From NCBI GenBank assembly GCA_023053545.1, contig JAKZAN010000002.1, positions 2,464,375-2,528,374 of the forward strand: a DNA stretch of 64,000 bases, in the 5' to 3' direction. The translations under genes and the position numbers were made by a program. Position 1 is the stretch's first letter. Each line of letters starts with the position of its first letter. The notes under the pieces were generated by a model that did no database searches, was not told the DNA's origin, and worked only from the letters and a program-made list of their open reading frames with translations. Below, in pieces: positions 98 to 60,633 of the stretch. This stretch comes from Lepidurus packardi (lineage: Eukaryota > Arthropoda > Branchiopoda > Notostraca > Triopsidae).

Positions 98-3000
98 ATG
101 AAGTTTCCCTTGGACTCAAAAGCGAAACATCGTCAGAGAAATCCGCGAAAGATCAAGTGAGTAATTTAATTTTCTAATTTAATTTTCCTTTAATTTTCTA
201 AAATTGTGTTATTTTCTATTATTTATTTATTTCAACAATTACTTATTTATTCTGGGATTGTCTTTTCTTTCAATGTGCTTATTTTTCAAGAGTCTATTTA
301 TCGAAGATTTATTTATTTTGCAATGGTTATCTATTTTTAGAGGGTTTGTTATTATTTGAGGTTTTGTTTGTGTTTTGATCTTTGAGTTTGGTTCATATTT
401 GATTTTGTTTATTATTTTTGATTTCTTTATATTTTGATTATGTTTACGTTGATATTTATACAAATTTGGCAGATTAATTCAGTTGGGAATATTTTGTTTA
501 GAAGACGCACAGTTTACTGTATCGGGATAGTTCAACAGAATCTGGGGAAGATGCAATTTACGAACGGGTGAAACCCATGGCTAAAATCATTGCTGCCGAA
601 CAAAAGCCGCAAGCTGGAGCCCGGGAGGCTCTGCCTATGGAAGCCATTTACTCTGTCGTGGTGAAGAAGCCCAAAGCAGTTGAAGTTATGGAGAAGCAGG
701 AGGAAGCGGTTCCGATTCCGGTGAAAACCCTTGATCGAGTCCAAAATGGGAAGATTGAAGCCCTGGAAGCTCCAAAAGAGCCCGAAAAGCTACCGCTGGA
801 AGAAGATATTGCGTGGGAGTACAAGCTACCAGATCCGCCCACTCCCTTCCAAGACGCGCCCCTGTTAGCCATCCCCGATCCTGTGGATTCCGTGTCGGAG
901 ACATTGAGTCGTTCATTGAGCTCTGCGAGCGAGTCAGATAGAGCCACGAGTCCGGTTTTGGAAGCTAAAGAAGTCCTCGATTCAGTCCAAGATTTGCGAT
1001 GGCAGGCAGGCGAAACCCGCACCGAAGCTGAGGAAGTCGAAGAAGAAGTCATTGTACCTGTAAAAGTCCAAAAAGCACCTTCTTTAGTCGTAAACGGGAT
1101 GAAAGATGAGAATATACTTGTCTTGACTGAGAAAATCAATGAAGAATCACAAACCGATGACCTAGCTTTGGAAACCCAAGTCGAACATCAAGAAACCATC
1201 AGGCTGGTGCAAGATGAAGCTGTTCAATGCCCAGATGAGCTTGCAATAACTCCGAAAGAAAGACTCGTAGAGGTCCAAGTTGAATTACACGTCGCAGAAG
1301 AGAAAACTGAAGAAGAATTCAAGACAAAAGTGGCGCCGAGCGTTGAAAAGACGGAAAAATCGCAGGAATATCAAGCCGAGGTTGAAAAGTCGAAAGAAAT
1401 TAAACGAAGAGAGGAACATGAAGAAGAAGCGGCAGCTATAGAAGAACTAGAACTCACTTTACAGGACTATGAAGACTCGCCAGCATCTTTTCCACCGATC
1501 ACCATGGAAATACACCAAATCCCTTCGGAATCGTCGAGCACAACCTTGGGAAGTTGCACAAGCAGTATTTCCTCTCACACAGACGTCGAAGTTCATATTG
1601 TACCTGCTCTTCAACCCACAGCTCCTTCTCCTATCCTTCGCCAATCGAATAGCTCTGCTCTTTTCACTATTTCTTCCATGAAAACGGAGCTGGAGTTCGA
1701 TTTGACCGATAATCAAAGCTTGGACAGTTTCGACAAGGAAGTGAAACGGAATTCCTTGTCCAGTCTGCAGAAATCCGAGTCCATGGCCCTGCCTATCAAA
1801 CCCAAGCTCTTGAAACGTCAATCCAGCTTTGGTGATGGAGACCAAGAACCATCCACAGTCAAAGAAACGCCCATAAATGCCCCGCCCGTGTCTTTAGATG
1901 CGGCGCAAACGAGTTCTCCAGTCAATGTAGAGCTTTTTATGCAAGCACAACAGCTGTTCTCTAAAGCGGCAGAGAATATGGGCAACCAACAACTCCAAGA
2001 AGAGTTTATTCGACTCCAACAACAATTCATCACCTGGCAGCAACAATTGCTGGCCAATCAGCAAGTGATACAAACTAAATTGACGCATTCCATGCAAGCC
2101 GACGCGCCAGCGCCCCTTATACTACAAAATGAGGACGAAAAAGGAACAATTATTGAAGAAAACTCGGAAAGAAAGGTTCAACTTGCTGAAGATGTCGAAA
2201 GAAAGGTTGAAGTCGTTCCAAATGTAGAAAGGGCGGTTGAAATAATTAATTTAGAGCCAGATAAGAAGGTAGAAATCATTAAAGAACAACCCAAACACAT
2301 CCAGCAAGCAAAGTCAGACCCAGAAGTCGTAGAAGAGCCTCCAACAATGGAAACCAACAGTGAAATTCAAGTTGAAGTACCTGGAACTGTACGTGTCATT
2401 GAGAATCCTGTCGATGACGTCACTTCTGCACGGCAAATAGACACATTCCCAGAAGACATTCCAAAAGAACCGGTGTACCGGTACCAAGGCCCACCCACTA
2501 TTAAGCTCGAACCTTGGCGGCCGGGTCGTCCCCGGTCGGAGATCATTGATTTTAGTCGGGATTCCAGCTTCTTTCTCCCGGATCAACTGTCGCAACCTTT
2601 GGAGCCTCGTAAAAGTGTCCGAGAACTGGCTCAGCGAAGCAAACTGGAGCAGCTAATCAAACCTATCACTTTCCCCAAACCTTCCGACGCCAAAAAGATA
2701 GCAGTATTGTCCCAGAATCCTTCTCCCGAGCCCCAAGTCGAGGTGGTTAATAAGGAAGAAGTGGAGAAGCGAGATATGAAGCCGCTTTTGACCAAACAAG
2801 TCACTTTACCCGCCACTGTTTTGGTTTCAACCAAGACCAACGACGTCCCTAGTCCTCTTCCAGCAAATTTCACAGATTTCGCCGCTTCCAACGTAGTTTC
2901 CACCCAATCAAGCGCGCCCTATAGACCTACGTTGGTCCGGAGAGCTTCCATTGGCACGCCCAGACCTTTTGAACTGAAACAAGCGCCTTTACGTAAGATT

Positions 3001-3378
3001 CAATTTCCCATCAGAGTACCGGAAGTACGAGGCTTTGCGCCGTTGAAGCCAGATGTCTTGCTGAGCCAAAGCCAAGCTCCAGTCAATCCCAAACCGACCA
3101 ATCAGATGCGAGATAAGCTGATTGTGTCGGCAAGGAGACCCTCAGCAGAGCTAAAACCGTTGGAAATGGAAGAACTGGCTAAATTGGGCACGAAAACAAC
3201 CATTTCACCTTCAGAACCAACTATTCCTCCTCCGCCTCCTCTCAGCTTACCTACCTTACGCCCCGCCCACTTACGCAAGCCATTACTGCCCGCGAAGAGC
3301 ATGTTGGACCCTCGGGAAGAGTTAATGATCGCGATTCGGAGTTTCGGGGCCAGTGGAGGTCTACGCAAAGTAATTTGA
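98..3378 (+). CDS. Large disordered protein with C-terminal poly-Pro and WH2-like motif (5' end outside window)
   Basis: Two exons are readable: 98-156 (acceptor before it, donor GTGAGT after it) and 502-3378, which join in phase and run open to the TGA at 3376-3378. More exons must lie upstream, so the start is not in the window. Most of the roughly 980 residues are low-complexity, rich in Glu, Lys, Pro, Ser and Val. A Gln-rich coiled coil is encoded at about 1918-2085 (core QLQEEFIRLQQQF). Near the end come a proline stretch (PTIPPPPPLSLP, about 3217-3250) and then LMIAIRSFG...GLRKV at 3325-3372. That matches the WH2 pattern of an amphipathic helix followed by LRKV/LKKT, as in cordon-bleu-type actin nucleators. 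Poly-Pro next to WH2 is a known profilin-actin arrangement. The role in actin binding is inferred; the family is not firmly identified. It converges on the KCNH gene. Confidence 0.75.
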
Positions 3379-47458: not shown

Positions 47459-54225
<6,767 letters not shown>

Positions 54226-54900
54226 ATCTAGGCCTGTCGATAGCTCACTTAGCTACCAAGCCTGCAACAAGTACAAATGACTAAGTGAATCAGTAGTCTG
54301 CATCACACTGAGTAAGTAACAACAAAAAAGTGGTACCGACTCCTGATTGACGAAAGTGAGCCAAAGAAAGCTCTGTACGTACTAATAAACCAAATGACAT
54401 TGGCCTAGTTTACCAATATCATTCTAGTTTTAGCAACAATAAAAAAACATCGTAGAATTTATTTGAATTAGTTCTACATACTTGCCACGTATTTATTTTA
54501 ACGTAATCCTGTAAAATGGAGCTTGTTTGTGTACGAAATATATGAAATTACACGTCACTTACACACACAACTGCATACTACTCTGGTGACCAAAGCCAAG
54601 ATGGCCACCAACACGACTGAAAGCGGGGAACCGGAGAAGCGCACAAAGTGGCGGTGCGGGTCACTTGTGTCCTCATCATGGTATATACATGTTGATCACT
54701 AGGTGGCTCTGAAAGACGAAATTTTCTAAGAATTGCATTGCAAAACTCGAACAAAAATTCCGTACACGGTATTGTACACATTGTATGTTAAATTACAATT
54801 TCCTAGCTTTCATGTTGAAAAGAAATGTACAAAAAATAAGTGAAAGGTAATACGTAGGAATTAAGTTAAAGATAAACATTAAGTTAAAGGTAAATATTAA

Positions 54901-55078
54901 CAGTTAAATGATAAGAATCGAATGTGTATATACGAACTTGAAAGTTAGAGAGGACCGCAGCCAGAACAAAATTATAGTAGGTCTCAGTTTCCTGGAAGCC
55001 TAAGGCTACGCAACACAACGATATGTTATTTGGTCAACTTTGATTAGTTTAATTCTCCTTAAAAAATAGAGATGTAAA
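54901..55078. repeat. Direct repeat, copy 1, upstream of lysA
   Basis: Matches 55666-55835 closely by eye over about 165 bp, including ATTAGAGAGGACCGCAGCC-like and GGAAGCCTAAGGCTACGCAA blocks. Weaker similarity continues at 55378-55546, matching 55905-56043. Confidence 0.85.
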
Positions 55079-55665: not shown

Positions 55666-55835
55666 CAGTTAAAAGATAAGAATCGAATGTCTATATACGA
55701 ACTTGAAAATTAGAGAGGACCGCAGCCAGAACAAAATTATAGTAGGTTTCAATTTCCTGGAAGCCTAAGGCTACGCAACATAAAGATATGTTATTTGGTC
55801 AACTTCGATTAGTTTAATTCTGCTTAAAATATAGC
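55666..55835. repeat. Direct repeat, copy 2, upstream of lysA
   Basis: Second copy, with about 765 bp between copy starts. The segment between the two conserved parts is shorter here (about 70 bp against about 300 bp in copy 1). Confidence 0.85.
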
Positions 55836-56109: not shown

Positions 56110-57749
56110 ATGGCATTCTTCATAAAAAAGGGAAAAATTTGCTGTGAGGAAATTGCGCTACCAAATTTATGCGAGACGGCGACCCAAACACCGTTTATCG
56201 TTTACAGTAAAGCTCAGCTGCTCAACAATGTTCAAGTAAAGCTTGCTTACGGAATAAATCACTTGTTGAAGAAGCATGCCAGATTTCGTTTCTTCATAGA
56301 GCTACAAAAAGGCATTGCAGGATGAAGGAGTTGAGGGTAAAACGAACTTGGGCTGCTCCATCAAGGCGAATAACAACTTAACCCTCTTACGATTACTGCA
56401 AGAGCAGGGTTGCTATGCCATCACCGTAAGCGGCTTCGAAATCCAAACAGCGTTAGAAGCTGGCTTCCAGAACCGTATTATGTTCAACGGCAATGGCAAA
56501 CAATTATGGGAGATCGATTTAGCAATAAAGAACAACTGCCTACTTAACGTAGACTCACTATTTGACGCCCACAACATCGTCCAAGTAGCGAAAAAATTCC
56601 CGAATATCATTCAAGTCTTACTTCGCATAAACCCAGCATTGAATGGGATAGAAACTGAGCATGCTTACAATACAACTGGTTTACCACAATCCAAATTTGG
56701 TATCGAACTTCAACTTCTAGATACAGTGCGTATTACTATACAAAAATCTATTCGGACCTATATATGATTACTACAAAATCGTTAGGTAGTTACTTGCCTA
56801 AGCAAAGGAAACGTGTCCGTTATAGGCTTGCATTGCCACATCGGAAGCACTGTCACTGAAGTCTCGATATACACACAAATGACTCAACTTCTCGTCATTT
56901 TGGCTCGTAAAGTATATAATCTTAACCGAAATTTCTCACTTTTTCATGCAAATTTTCAATAGTATCGAGCTCAAGGCTTACCAATAAACGTGATAAACAT
57001 TGGAGGAGGTCTTGGGATTCCATATCTTCCCAATGCAAAGCTTCCAAGCCCTCGTGATTTGATTCAGGTACATAAATTGATAAAGAGATGAGAATTCGGT
57101 ACTAAAGTCAAACAAAATTAGGCGGTAGTACCACATTTGCCCTGTGATTTGAAGCTCATTCTTGAACCTGGGCGTTCAATTTTTGCAAATACGGGTAAAC
57201 GCTGCATTTACGTCAAAGAACATCTTTTTAAGAGATATTTCTGTTATATTTAATTTGTAAATGTGTCATATGTACAGCGGCTCTAATAACGCGCGTTTTG
57301 GGCTCGAAAATAGCTGGCGGAAAAAAGTATTTGGTTGTTGACGCTGCCATGAACGACCTTATCCGTCCTAGCTTGTACAACGCCTATCACCACATTACCC
57401 CTTTAGATGTGCCGGTAAAAAAAACAGCTATTACAAAGAAACGAAACTCTCGGCCAAAGGCGGTTTTTTAACGTTTTTAAAGGAAAGCTGTCTTGAAGAA
57501 ATCTACGATGTAGTCGGACCAGTTTGCGAGTCGGGAGATTTTCTGGGCAAAGACCGTAAACTGCCAGTACTAGACGAGGGCGCAACATTGGCTGTTCTAG
57601 ACGTTGGAGCTTACGGCATGTCCATGTCCAGTAATTATAACATGCGGCCTCGGATGACAGAAATCTTGATCAATGGTGAACAATGGCGAGTAATAAGGCG
57701 AAGAGAGACATGGAATGACTTGGTGCGTACAATGAAGGGGCTTAACTGA
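56110..57749 (+). CDS. lysA: Diaminopimelate decarboxylase (LysA), probable horizontally acquired gene
   Basis: PLP enzyme (fold III, alanine racemase-type barrel) that decarboxylates meso-diaminopimelate to L-lysine, the last step of bacterial and plant lysine synthesis. Seven exons: 56110-56235, 56300-56729, 56790-56911, 56963-57067, 57122-57194, 57278-57414 and 57483-57749; introns 51-83 bp, all GT-AG. The sum is 1260 nt, 419 aa plus stop, the normal LysA length. Motifs in order: [15 protein letters not shown], the PLP lysine in SIKANNN (K64), [28 protein letters not shown] (about 199-206), [10 protein letters not shown] (about 238), [26 protein letters not shown] with the catalytic Cys (about 346), and [13 protein letters not shown]. 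Apparent frame breaks near 56310 and 57420 are explained by introns. Residue 61, before the PLP lysine, is Cys where Tyr is usual. Convergent with ATG4, 37 bp between stop codons. Confidence 0.93.
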
Positions 57750-57786: not shown

Positions 57787-59282
57787 CTAGCCAATAATTT
57801 CAAACTCCTCTCCTTCTTCCTCTCCTGCAGTACCTATTAGATCCAATACATATCAATGAGTCAGCACAGAAATGAAACACCAAACAAGACTTACTAACTG
57901 ACGCAACTTGAAAGCTTTCCAAGTCTTGCTCGTGCCATTCAGGGGGTCTTTCCGAGCACATTTCGAATAAGGGTCTGCCTTCGATCAATACTTGCTTCTC
58001 AATAGCTTCGCATAAGGACCGGAAATCCGCTTGTGTACGACAGAAGAAACCCTAGGAAACACAGTGTTATTACAATACTAAAAAGTCACACATTGCAAGT
58101 CCTCAAAAAAGGCCAATACCAACCAGAGCTATAGAAGGATCTAAAGATTTGATTGGCAGCCTGCCTGCGTAGTTGCAGTGATACGTTGCGTCAATACTCG
58201 GGTCGCTCTTGGACTCTTCTAGATCATGGTAAGGTTGAGTTACGTGCGGATCCAGGAAAACTAACTCGTCACCTAGAATCGCATACATAATTAGTTGCTA
58301 TGAATGAGAACCCTTATGAAGTCATGAATGTACCCATGTAACCAACGAAATACAAGGCGTGTGTAGGTTTTCCTCCAATAATGCCTACGCAGTACGGTAG
58401 TCGGAAACAAGCCTACAAGCTAGGTATAAAAAGTCACGTTCCCATTCTTTTAATGCATTCTTGGTATACCTTGATGGGTTCAATGTAAATGGGATTGATT
58501 TCTGAGAGACCCAAACGTAAGGGCACAAACAAGAGCAAAGGCTTCCAACCTTGAGGTCTGGAGCATTTAGACTCGATGTCTTTCGTGATTAAAGTGTTGT
58601 CTAGCGCAACATGTACTTCTATATTGCTCCAGACGTCGTAGGTAGCCAACTTTCTAAAACGTAAAGCAATGAATAGAGAGCTGACAATAATAAAAGCCAT
58701 CGTTTTCGTACTTGATAGCTTGAGCTACTGTATTGGGTCCAAACCAGTCTCCAACAGCTTTGCCCTCAGACACGCCCATTAAGGCAATCTGATGTATAGA
58801 AAAGGGTGCTGAACGTTTGTCCTCAAATAAAGCCAGTAAACGCCGATAGATTTCGTTGTGATTGGTTTTACTTGGCGTCCATCTCCAATCAGGACCTTAA
58901 AACAAAACTATATGCTATACAATTACTGTCTAAGGGATAACAAAGAGTATACCGAGATGAAGAATCGTTAATCCTTCTGCTAAAACCATCTGTCCACATC
59001 GCAGCATGCATCCCCAACCTTTATCTGAAGTTATTCCTGTTTCTCCAATAGGTACGAAGTTCTTCCGGTAAGTAAACCATAATTTCGACGAGATAACGCT
59101 CTTCAATTCTGCCAATTCTAGGATACACACAATAAGCTTTAATGTTCACCAAACCAGTATTATACAAGATTAATTTCATTACCTGTTGTTCTTGTTGTGT
59201 TGTACCGTCTACCCAGAATCCAAACAGGCTCGTCAGATTCGGGGAAATCTTGAGTTTCCAGAGACCCAACCTCGTAGGTCAT
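57787..59282 (-). CDS. Atg4: ATG4 cysteine protease (autophagy)
   Basis: Cytosolic C54 peptidase that cleaves the C-terminus of ATG8/LC3-family proteins and later delipidates them. Eight exons: 59282-59183, 59117-58953, 58895-58712, 58653-58470, 58412-58334, 58272-58124, 58051-57895 and 57833-57787, totalling 1065 nt, 354 aa plus stop, all phases matching. Seen: start region [15 protein letters not shown], catalytic Cys in [14 protein letters not shown] (C70), [37 protein letters not shown], and the Asp/His pair in [12 protein letters not shown] (about 245 and 247). The tail is acidic and ends EEFEIIG, in the position of the ATG8-binding FEIL motif of human ATG4B. Somewhat shorter than human ATG4B (393 aa). 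It resembles ATG4A/B rather than the longer C/D type. Confidence 0.96.
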
Positions 59283-60633
59283 ACAAGCTTCAAACATATC
59301 TCTTTGCACTGTTTACGAAAGTATTTTCGATGAACAACTATTGTTCAAAAGACTACTTCGTGCCCACAGAATTAGTCTTGTTGTTTACTCACCAGAACTA
59401 CGTCATTTTTTTTTAATACAAATCACGTAAGCCGACACCACCTTGTGAGCGAAACCTAAAATAGTAACAAATCTTGTGCGCGGTCAAAGTCACGAGGTTT
59501 CCTTGTTCTGAGTTCAGAAATATGCTCCTTACGACGCTTCAAAATGACAAGAATAAACTGCCTTTGTGTTCATGGAATCCTTGTATTGGGCGCCCTGGAC
59601 CCATGGCCTGACAATGCAATTACAAAATCACGTTCTTTGCGGACACAAAAAGGAGAAATAATTGAAAGAAAAATCTGGAAATAAAGTACATTCTTATCGG
59701 CTTCGTCTTCTTTCTTTTATCTTTTCTGTTGTTCTGTTTTGCCACTTATCAGTTATCAAATACCTACTCAACTTCACCCATGAAAAGTTGGAACAATACT
59801 TGTCGCTGGGGTCATACACTAAGCAAACAAACTGTTCACTTCACATGCAAGTTTAGGTGAACCAAAAAGAAGCGAATTGGAGGCTTTGTAAGCAGGGCGT
59901 AGTTCCTTTTTAATAACACCAATTTGTATGGCCAGGATTTGGGTACGGGTTCCCCAAGAAAAGAACAAAGAATGAAGACAGTAAAAAAAAATTTATCAAG
60001 AAGGCAAGGCAACAAAACGAAGCAATAATTTAGGCTGGAAACTAAAGCGAAACCCTTCCCTCACGAATCCTTCGAGAAAGTGTCAGGAAAACCAGCTTTC
60101 ACCAGGATTGAATAGTGTTTTCCTTTTCTGCGCTGGAAAAAGTTCTTTACTAATGAAGGATAGTTGTTTTCCTATGTGACGTAAATTTGCTTACTGGTAC
60201 AGAACTTGCGAATAGAACGATAGACAGATAAGATAATGAGACCAAGAAAAAAAATCAAACAATAAGGAAATTTTTTTCTGAAAACCGCTAGAATTGCGTA
60301 GGGACCTCTCTGCAGACTAGACAAGCCCTGCCCTTTTGCCACGCCGATGCAGAATGATGATCCCTTTTCGATTTCTTGGGGGGTTAATTTCTGCCTCCAT
60401 CTTATAACCACACATAAGGAAAGGGAAAAAAGGCGTCTTACTCTCCAATCATTTAAAAAAATCGCAATTTTGATCCAAATCCCCCCTTGCCCCCTCCCAT
60501 TCGATGAACTTAAAGGCAGCACAAAACATAAGAGGGCAAACTGGGCTGCACGCAAGCCTAAAGACGAGACAAAGAAACTGTTAACTTTGCATGAAACGTT
60601 ATTTCTGCTGGAAGGATTTTTTTACCTAGATTT
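59283..60633. other. Intergenic region upstream of ATG4 and downstream of profilin
   Basis: Contains the ATG4 5' region and the profilin 3' UTR. Open frames such as 59662-59856 (+) and 60347-60637 (+) look random. No repeat recognised. Confidence 0.5.

Follow-up and report, generated by a model that had tools for sequence, protein, structure and literature searches.

Lysine ranks among the amino acids regarded as essential in animals; what, then, is a complete, intron-bearing lysA gene doing in a crustacean genome, how old is it there, and what could it be used for? We analysed a 64,000-nucleotide stretch of DNA (hereafter the window), which corresponds to positions 2464375-2528374 of C2, a contig of 13,522,901 bp in an assembly of 108,557,554 bases and 344 contigs. 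The gene occupies 56110-57749 of the window on the plus strand, and a first, sequence-only reading had its coordinates, length and intron count right. Exon 1 (56110-56235) opens with the start codon at 56110 and is followed by intron 1 (56236-56299); exon 2 (56300-56725; intron 2, 56726-56785) holds the PLP lysine K64 in the motif CSIKANNN; exon 3 (56786-56911; intron 3, 56912-56962) holds HCHIGST, exon 4 (56963-57067; intron 4, 57068-57121) GGGLGI, exon 5 (57122-57194; intron 5, 57195-57277) EPGR and exon 6 (57278-57414; intron 6, 57415-57482) an 11-residue motif; exon 7 (57483-57749) carries a 10-residue motif, the GAY..NYN motif and the stop codon. Joined, the seven plus-strand exons form a coding sequence of 1,260 nt, encoding 419 amino acids and a stop, with zero internal stops. 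The introns measure 64, 60, 51, 54, 83 and 68 bp with phases 0,0,0,0,1,0, and GT..AG boundaries are found in all six at splice sites predicted from the genomic sequence, in keeping with the earlier count of six short introns.

The gene had been described as lying between two native animal genes, and Pfam domains confirm both. Its 5' neighbour, on the minus strand at approximately 47459-54081, encodes RPB1, the largest subunit of RNA polymerase II (PF04997, PF00623, PF04983, PF04998 and PF04990, with YSPTSPS repeats); this span covers the recognisable exons, and the gene may begin with an N-terminal exon beyond it. The 3' neighbour, also on the minus strand at approximately 57800-59312, encodes an ATG4-type cysteine peptidase, with PF03416 detected in two ORFs out of three examined. 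Several other features of the window were observed along the way. Upstream of lysA, a 169-bp direct repeat (54901-55069 and 55666-55834, 94% identical) has its two copies here as the sole places found in the assembly, and two shorter repeat families occupy the same stretch; between RPB1 and lysA, a short ATG frame on the plus strand (MATNTTESGEPEKRTKWRCGSLVSSS.., 54601-54680) ends before GTATAT and is perhaps the first exon of some unrecognised gene. Further off, a 958-aa open frame (502-3378, plus strand) has no Pfam match at E 0.001, and exons with PAS and cyclic-nucleotide-binding domains at about 7700-36000 on the minus strand probably belong, as we take it, to one KCNH-type potassium channel gene.

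That the host looked like a crustacean is borne out by a COX1 sequence on the 10.7-Mb contig C6, which is, judged by its broken frame, apparently a nuclear copy of mitochondrial DNA; its identity is 97-98% with Lepidurus, compared with 95-96% for Triops and 92-93% for clam shrimps, which identifies the animal as a tadpole shrimp (Notostraca) close to Lepidurus. Many further COX1 pieces with TGA codons and broken frames occur on C1, C2, C4, C5, C6, C21 and C38, i.e., what appear to be abundant nuclear copies of mitochondrial DNA, mostly on large contigs. The assembly also includes eleven contigs, 50-396 kb long, that look bacterial in the stretches examined (C42, C43, C44, C52, C53, C55, C67, C95, C214, C324 and C344), with at least two GC classes of about 0.36-0.41 and 0.61-0.67. 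When the assembly is searched with the protein itself, the window gene is the single host copy and a second host lysA is absent; C53 carries a bacterial-looking lysA-like gene, 37% identical to Lepidurus LysA, matches on C178 and C208 reach 24-27% identity, and a weak match on C3 is taken as the animal's probable ornithine decarboxylase. Of the C178 and C208 loci, the former (L003, C178:42833-46525) matches pyridoxal-dependent decarboxylases with a 388-aa open frame, and the latter (L004, C208:70134-73823) matches the same family with in-frame stops, mostly TAG.

By family, fold and checked motif residues the product is a diaminopimelate (DAP) decarboxylase, its catalysis being predicted. It scores 396.1 bits against the NCBIfam lysA model TIGR01048 (cut-off 297.9), above the family threshold, and contains Pfam PF02784 and PF00278. 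Among enzymes of solved structure, those nearest in sequence are the Arabidopsis DAP decarboxylases DAPDC1/2 (PDB 6n2a/6n2f; 329.7 and 328.8 bits), which resemble Lepidurus LysA in fold, length and checked motif residues at 42-43% identity and from which it differs as an animal gene with introns whose upstream DAP pathway was not found on large contigs; the diatom LYSA in the PDB (7jpj) reaches 69.5 bits, versus 329.7 for the plant enzyme. An AlphaFold model built from a 17-row alignment has a mean pLDDT of 87.3 and a pTM of 0.88, with 270 of the 419 residues at pLDDT >=90 and seven below 50, including residues 316-318 beside the R315/Y319 motif. Foldseek places this barrel with its C-terminal sheet closest to the Arabidopsis enzyme 6n2f (TM-score 0.92), and ranks 1-16 among its PDB matches are all DAP decarboxylases. 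The sequence-only reading had all main motifs present, and indeed the 14 checked residues, which we take to represent the PLP-binding lysine and the GGG, EPGR, R...Y and CE motifs, are identical in 17 of 17 aligned rows, the window protein included.

The relatives of the protein point away from a private acquisition. Among the best 120 of 8000 scored matches, the closest is a Daphnia pulicaria protein named 'diaminopimelate decarboxylase-like' (P0001; 50% identity over 93%), which at 460 aa has a longer N-terminus than the 419-aa Lepidurus protein. The same 120 include Branchiostoma belcheri, Mactra antiquata, Mytilus edulis, Dreissena polymorpha, Owenia fusiformis, Haliotis cracherodii, Pecten maximus, Mya arenaria and Saccoglossus kowalevskii, as well as Adineta vaga, two Rotaria and Em0021g403a, presumably from an Ephydatia sponge by its id; a second list, likewise the best 120, brings in Lingula anatina, Saccostrea echinata, Didymodactylos carnosus, Brachionus plicatilis and B. 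calyciflorus. We count the named animal relatives as spanning seven bilaterian phyla. Among the matches listed, 19 named animal relatives lie on contigs of 1-75 Mb (13 of them) or 7-390 kb (6), and all ten relatives tested (eight named animals, Em0021g403a and P0003) exceed the TIGR01048 cut-off. No insects, nematodes or vertebrates appear among the named rows of the two best-120 lists, which suggests, but does not show, that lysA is absent from these groups. The best-scoring prokaryotes (80 loci of 586) are Candidatus Poribacteria at 43-44% identity, and a few other prokaryotes among the matches listed reach 45% at lower scores (e.g., P0037). Two relatives, P0002 and P0003, are each encoded full-length in one unbroken frame on a short contig (up to 2,973 and 4,086 bases), as would fit spliced transcripts. 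In a Didymodactylos carnosus model (P0244, 815 aa, partial) LysA is fused to SH3 domains, which may be a gene-model error.

How old this lineage is depends on the trees. FastTree on 231 rows (183 relatives, 46 of the 80 prokaryote loci, the window protein and one Arabidopsis chain) joins the window protein to Daphnia and P0002, with the warning that long branches meet at that join, so long-branch error could affect its deep placement in either direction. Maximum likelihood with IQ-TREE on 73 rows hand-picked from the 231 and rooted with the prokaryote outgroup recovers the window protein, Daphnia and P0002 at 97/87, inside a 51-row clade (100/99) in which animals are joined by plants, Poribacteria and rows without an organism name. 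This clade stands apart from 22 rows counted as prokaryote, of which P0063 likewise lacks an organism name. On this evidence the lineage appears to predate the split of tadpole shrimps and water fleas. AU tests, on groups chosen after earlier trees had been inspected, reject with moderate strength a placement of the window protein with the 22 prokaryote rows (p 0.027) or of the branchiopods with them (p 0.046). Em0021g403a groups with plant rows in the tree, and a tree that unites it with the bilaterians is not rejected either (p 0.253). Poribacterial lysA (L024-L027, three of the four loci being in the trees) groups with Arabidopsis, the sponge and some other LysA, away from the remaining bacteria; this suggests that a eukaryote and these bacteria exchanged the gene in one direction or the other.

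Whether the branchiopod gene shares its origin with that of other animals is where the main rival to our reading enters: the arthropod (branchiopod) line may have gained lysA early and independently of other animals, the source being of eukaryote type or unsampled, giving the same enzyme with perhaps the same use. With the prokaryote outgroup, branchiopods and P0003 do fall outside plants and the other animals (96/98 in the 73-row tree), and the window protein lies outside in all three quick trees built on stricter columns (all rows, minus three odd rows, and minus Daphnia), in which its join to Daphnia is weak, P0003 being the first neighbour in one and support being 9 in another. However, in a tree without P0265 and the 22 distant rows, the 35 bilaterian-side rows, 17 of which lack an organism name and are classed as bilaterian by tree position alone, form one side of a branch at 95/89, a split present in 96% of 200 bootstrap trees, and a single clade of these rows is not rejected by the AU test (p 0.218). 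The reduced tree further recovers molluscs (96/84; 12 rows, 5 by position), rotifers (98/98; 10 rows, 5 by position), and branchiopods with P0003 (100/99; 97/90 without it), and the long branches at the join with Daphnia leave the deep placement prone to error in either direction. We consider a separate arthropod acquisition rather unlikely, if a serious contender. The lysA lineage was most likely already present in the bilaterian ancestor, and one bilaterian origin is favoured, not proven, because branchiopods fall outside plants and other animals with the outgroup. The sequence-only reading had treated a position inside an ancestral animal clade as the result that would speak against horizontal transfer; the animal best matches, the join with Daphnia and the rejected prokaryote grouping go that way, and the outgroup-rooted position of the branchiopods does not. 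The lineage itself may have begun with an ancient transfer or through vertical inheritance.

If the enzyme is old, what would supply it? A whole-assembly search found no dapA, dapB, dapF or asd on large contigs, with matches only on contigs of 102-382 kb: DapF on C95 and C43, DapB (DapB_C) on C55 and C67, a full DHDPS on C53, and asd on C44, a contig whose sequence was viewed around its NlpC/P60 match only. The stretches around the DapF, DapB and DHDPS matches show long uninterrupted frames at a GC of 0.36-0.40 or 0.67. A lone DHDPS-family exon on the 12.5-Mb contig C5 was considered as a dapA candidate and rejected, its best match being human 4-hydroxy-2-oxoglutarate aldolase (HOGA1-like). 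The search reads the assembly exon by exon, and a short-exon gene may escape it; it did recover the exons of the intron-bearing lysA and of i-type lysozyme, and is therefore not blind to host genes. With these four genes matched solely on 102-382 kb, mostly bacterial-looking contigs, it seems that the animal lost, or never had, the remaining DAP pathway, and so would have kept an orphan last step.

We are moderately confident in the joint reading that an old LysA of plant/animal type has been kept as an orphan last step that turns meso-DAP from bacterial walls into lysine. In this proposal, bacteria would be eaten by the animal; wall peptides would be freed by host lysozymes, for which i-type exons are present on C6 and C2, by peptidases or by gut microbes; meso-DAP would be taken into cells; and LysA with PLP would remove the carboxylate at the D-centre of meso-DAP to yield L-lysine, to our knowledge an amino acid otherwise beyond the synthetic capacity of animals. 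The substrate of LysA is meso-DAP, the form found in Gram-negative walls, and an epimerase would thus be unnecessary. The named animals with lysA are, as far as we can judge, mostly filter, deposit or biofilm feeders. We infer the expression, activity, cell location, substrate source and nutritional role of the product. The assembly search found no PGRP amidase or NlpC/P60 peptidase on large contigs; these domains were found solely on four contigs (C42, C44, C324 and C344), which are 50-396 kb long with long open frames in the stretches examined, so no dedicated cutter of wall peptides is evident and the salvage idea is not helped. There is a microbial precedent for the chemistry, in that marine bacteria are described as using environmental DAP through LysA (PMC9602339). 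According to the same source, Km values of four bacterial LysA enzymes are 0.72-1.90 mM and free DAP in seawater is 0.61-0.96 uM (PMC9602339), and DAP would therefore have to be concentrated.

It is possible that the enzyme has instead changed its function, acting on another amino acid (e.g., D-lysine or D-ornithine), removing microbial DAP or moonlighting. A source of DAP in the host genome was not found in the assembly search, D-ornithine/D-lysine decarboxylase shares the fold of the LysA model in the Foldseek comparison, and residue 61, just before the PLP lysine, is C in Lepidurus where all 16 other aligned rows have Y or F. Against this, the checked motif residues are unaltered and the DokD model scores the product at 163.5 bits (cut-off 700), versus 396.1 for the lysA model; we regard a changed function as improbable.

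The sequence-only reading had proposed a crustacean transfer of its own, comparable with those in whiteflies and mealybugs, and this is not supported by the comparison with other animals: the best matches listed are animals, and the gene joins Daphnia. A recent, symbiosis-linked transfer from bacteria is largely refuted and seems to us very improbable, even though such transfers into sap feeders have been published (PMC4607527) and bacterial-looking contigs sit in the same assembly. The join of Lepidurus with Daphnia at 97/87, in a tree without whitefly, mealybug or Planctomycetes rows, argues against it, as do the rejected grouping with the 22 prokaryote rows, the placement with plants of the best-scoring prokaryotes (Poribacteria), and the lack of a dapB or dapF partner on large contigs. 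Transfer from the bacteria in the assembly itself was considered and rejected, the C53 gene being just 37% identical. Contamination or a chimeric assembly, which the bacterial-looking contigs might bring to mind, is in practice refuted by the six GT-AG introns and the flanking RPB1 and ATG4 genes, to which the sequence-only reading had already pointed, and by the 13.5-Mb contig and the relatives in many other animals, which likewise lie on large contigs.

Having set these alternatives aside, we return to an old LysA kept for wall-derived meso-DAP, which differs from the animal cases that we found described. The whitefly and mealybug genes likewise place LysA in an arthropod nucleus, but they are described as bacterial transfers that complement symbiont pathways, the whitefly gene lying near Planctomycetes and the mealybug gene being an independent transfer (PMC4607527); Lepidurus lysA is placed among animal and plant genes and stands on its own, a distinction drawn from the published description. 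An anthozoan DAP decarboxylase also belongs to an animal gene set and is ascribed to another eukaryotic source, chlorophyll-c algae, again as judged by its description (PMC4878875), and in the octocoral Heliopora the enzyme is reported in symbiont transcripts and not in host transcripts (PMC5976621). Among choanoflagellates, dapF is given as a transfer, while asd and lysAC were flagged and failed a later filter (PMC7971027). According to a survey, bacteria, plants and algae are where the DAP pathway occurs (PMC3287585). A crab transcript called LYSA, which bears a Bacteroides-like name (PMC12070891), was left out of our analysis. In the available portions of the literature searched, with subscription papers and preprints outside the search, we found no description of a bilaterian lysA lineage or of DAP salvage by animals. 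What remains is an orphan, conserved and putatively lysine-making step in several animal phyla, its activity predicted from the gene.

The old lineage corrects the tempting story of a private horizontal transfer. More broadly, and more tentatively than for the reading of the Lepidurus gene itself, many invertebrates that feed on microbes, among them tadpole shrimps and water fleas, may have kept an ancestral LysA, may turn wall meso-DAP into lysine, and may not depend strictly on dietary lysine. If this is true, some animals across several phyla could obtain an essential amino acid by recycling the walls of bacteria, which would matter for aquatic nutrition, for interpreting amino-acid isotopes in food webs, and for how we understand the loss of amino-acid pathways in animals.
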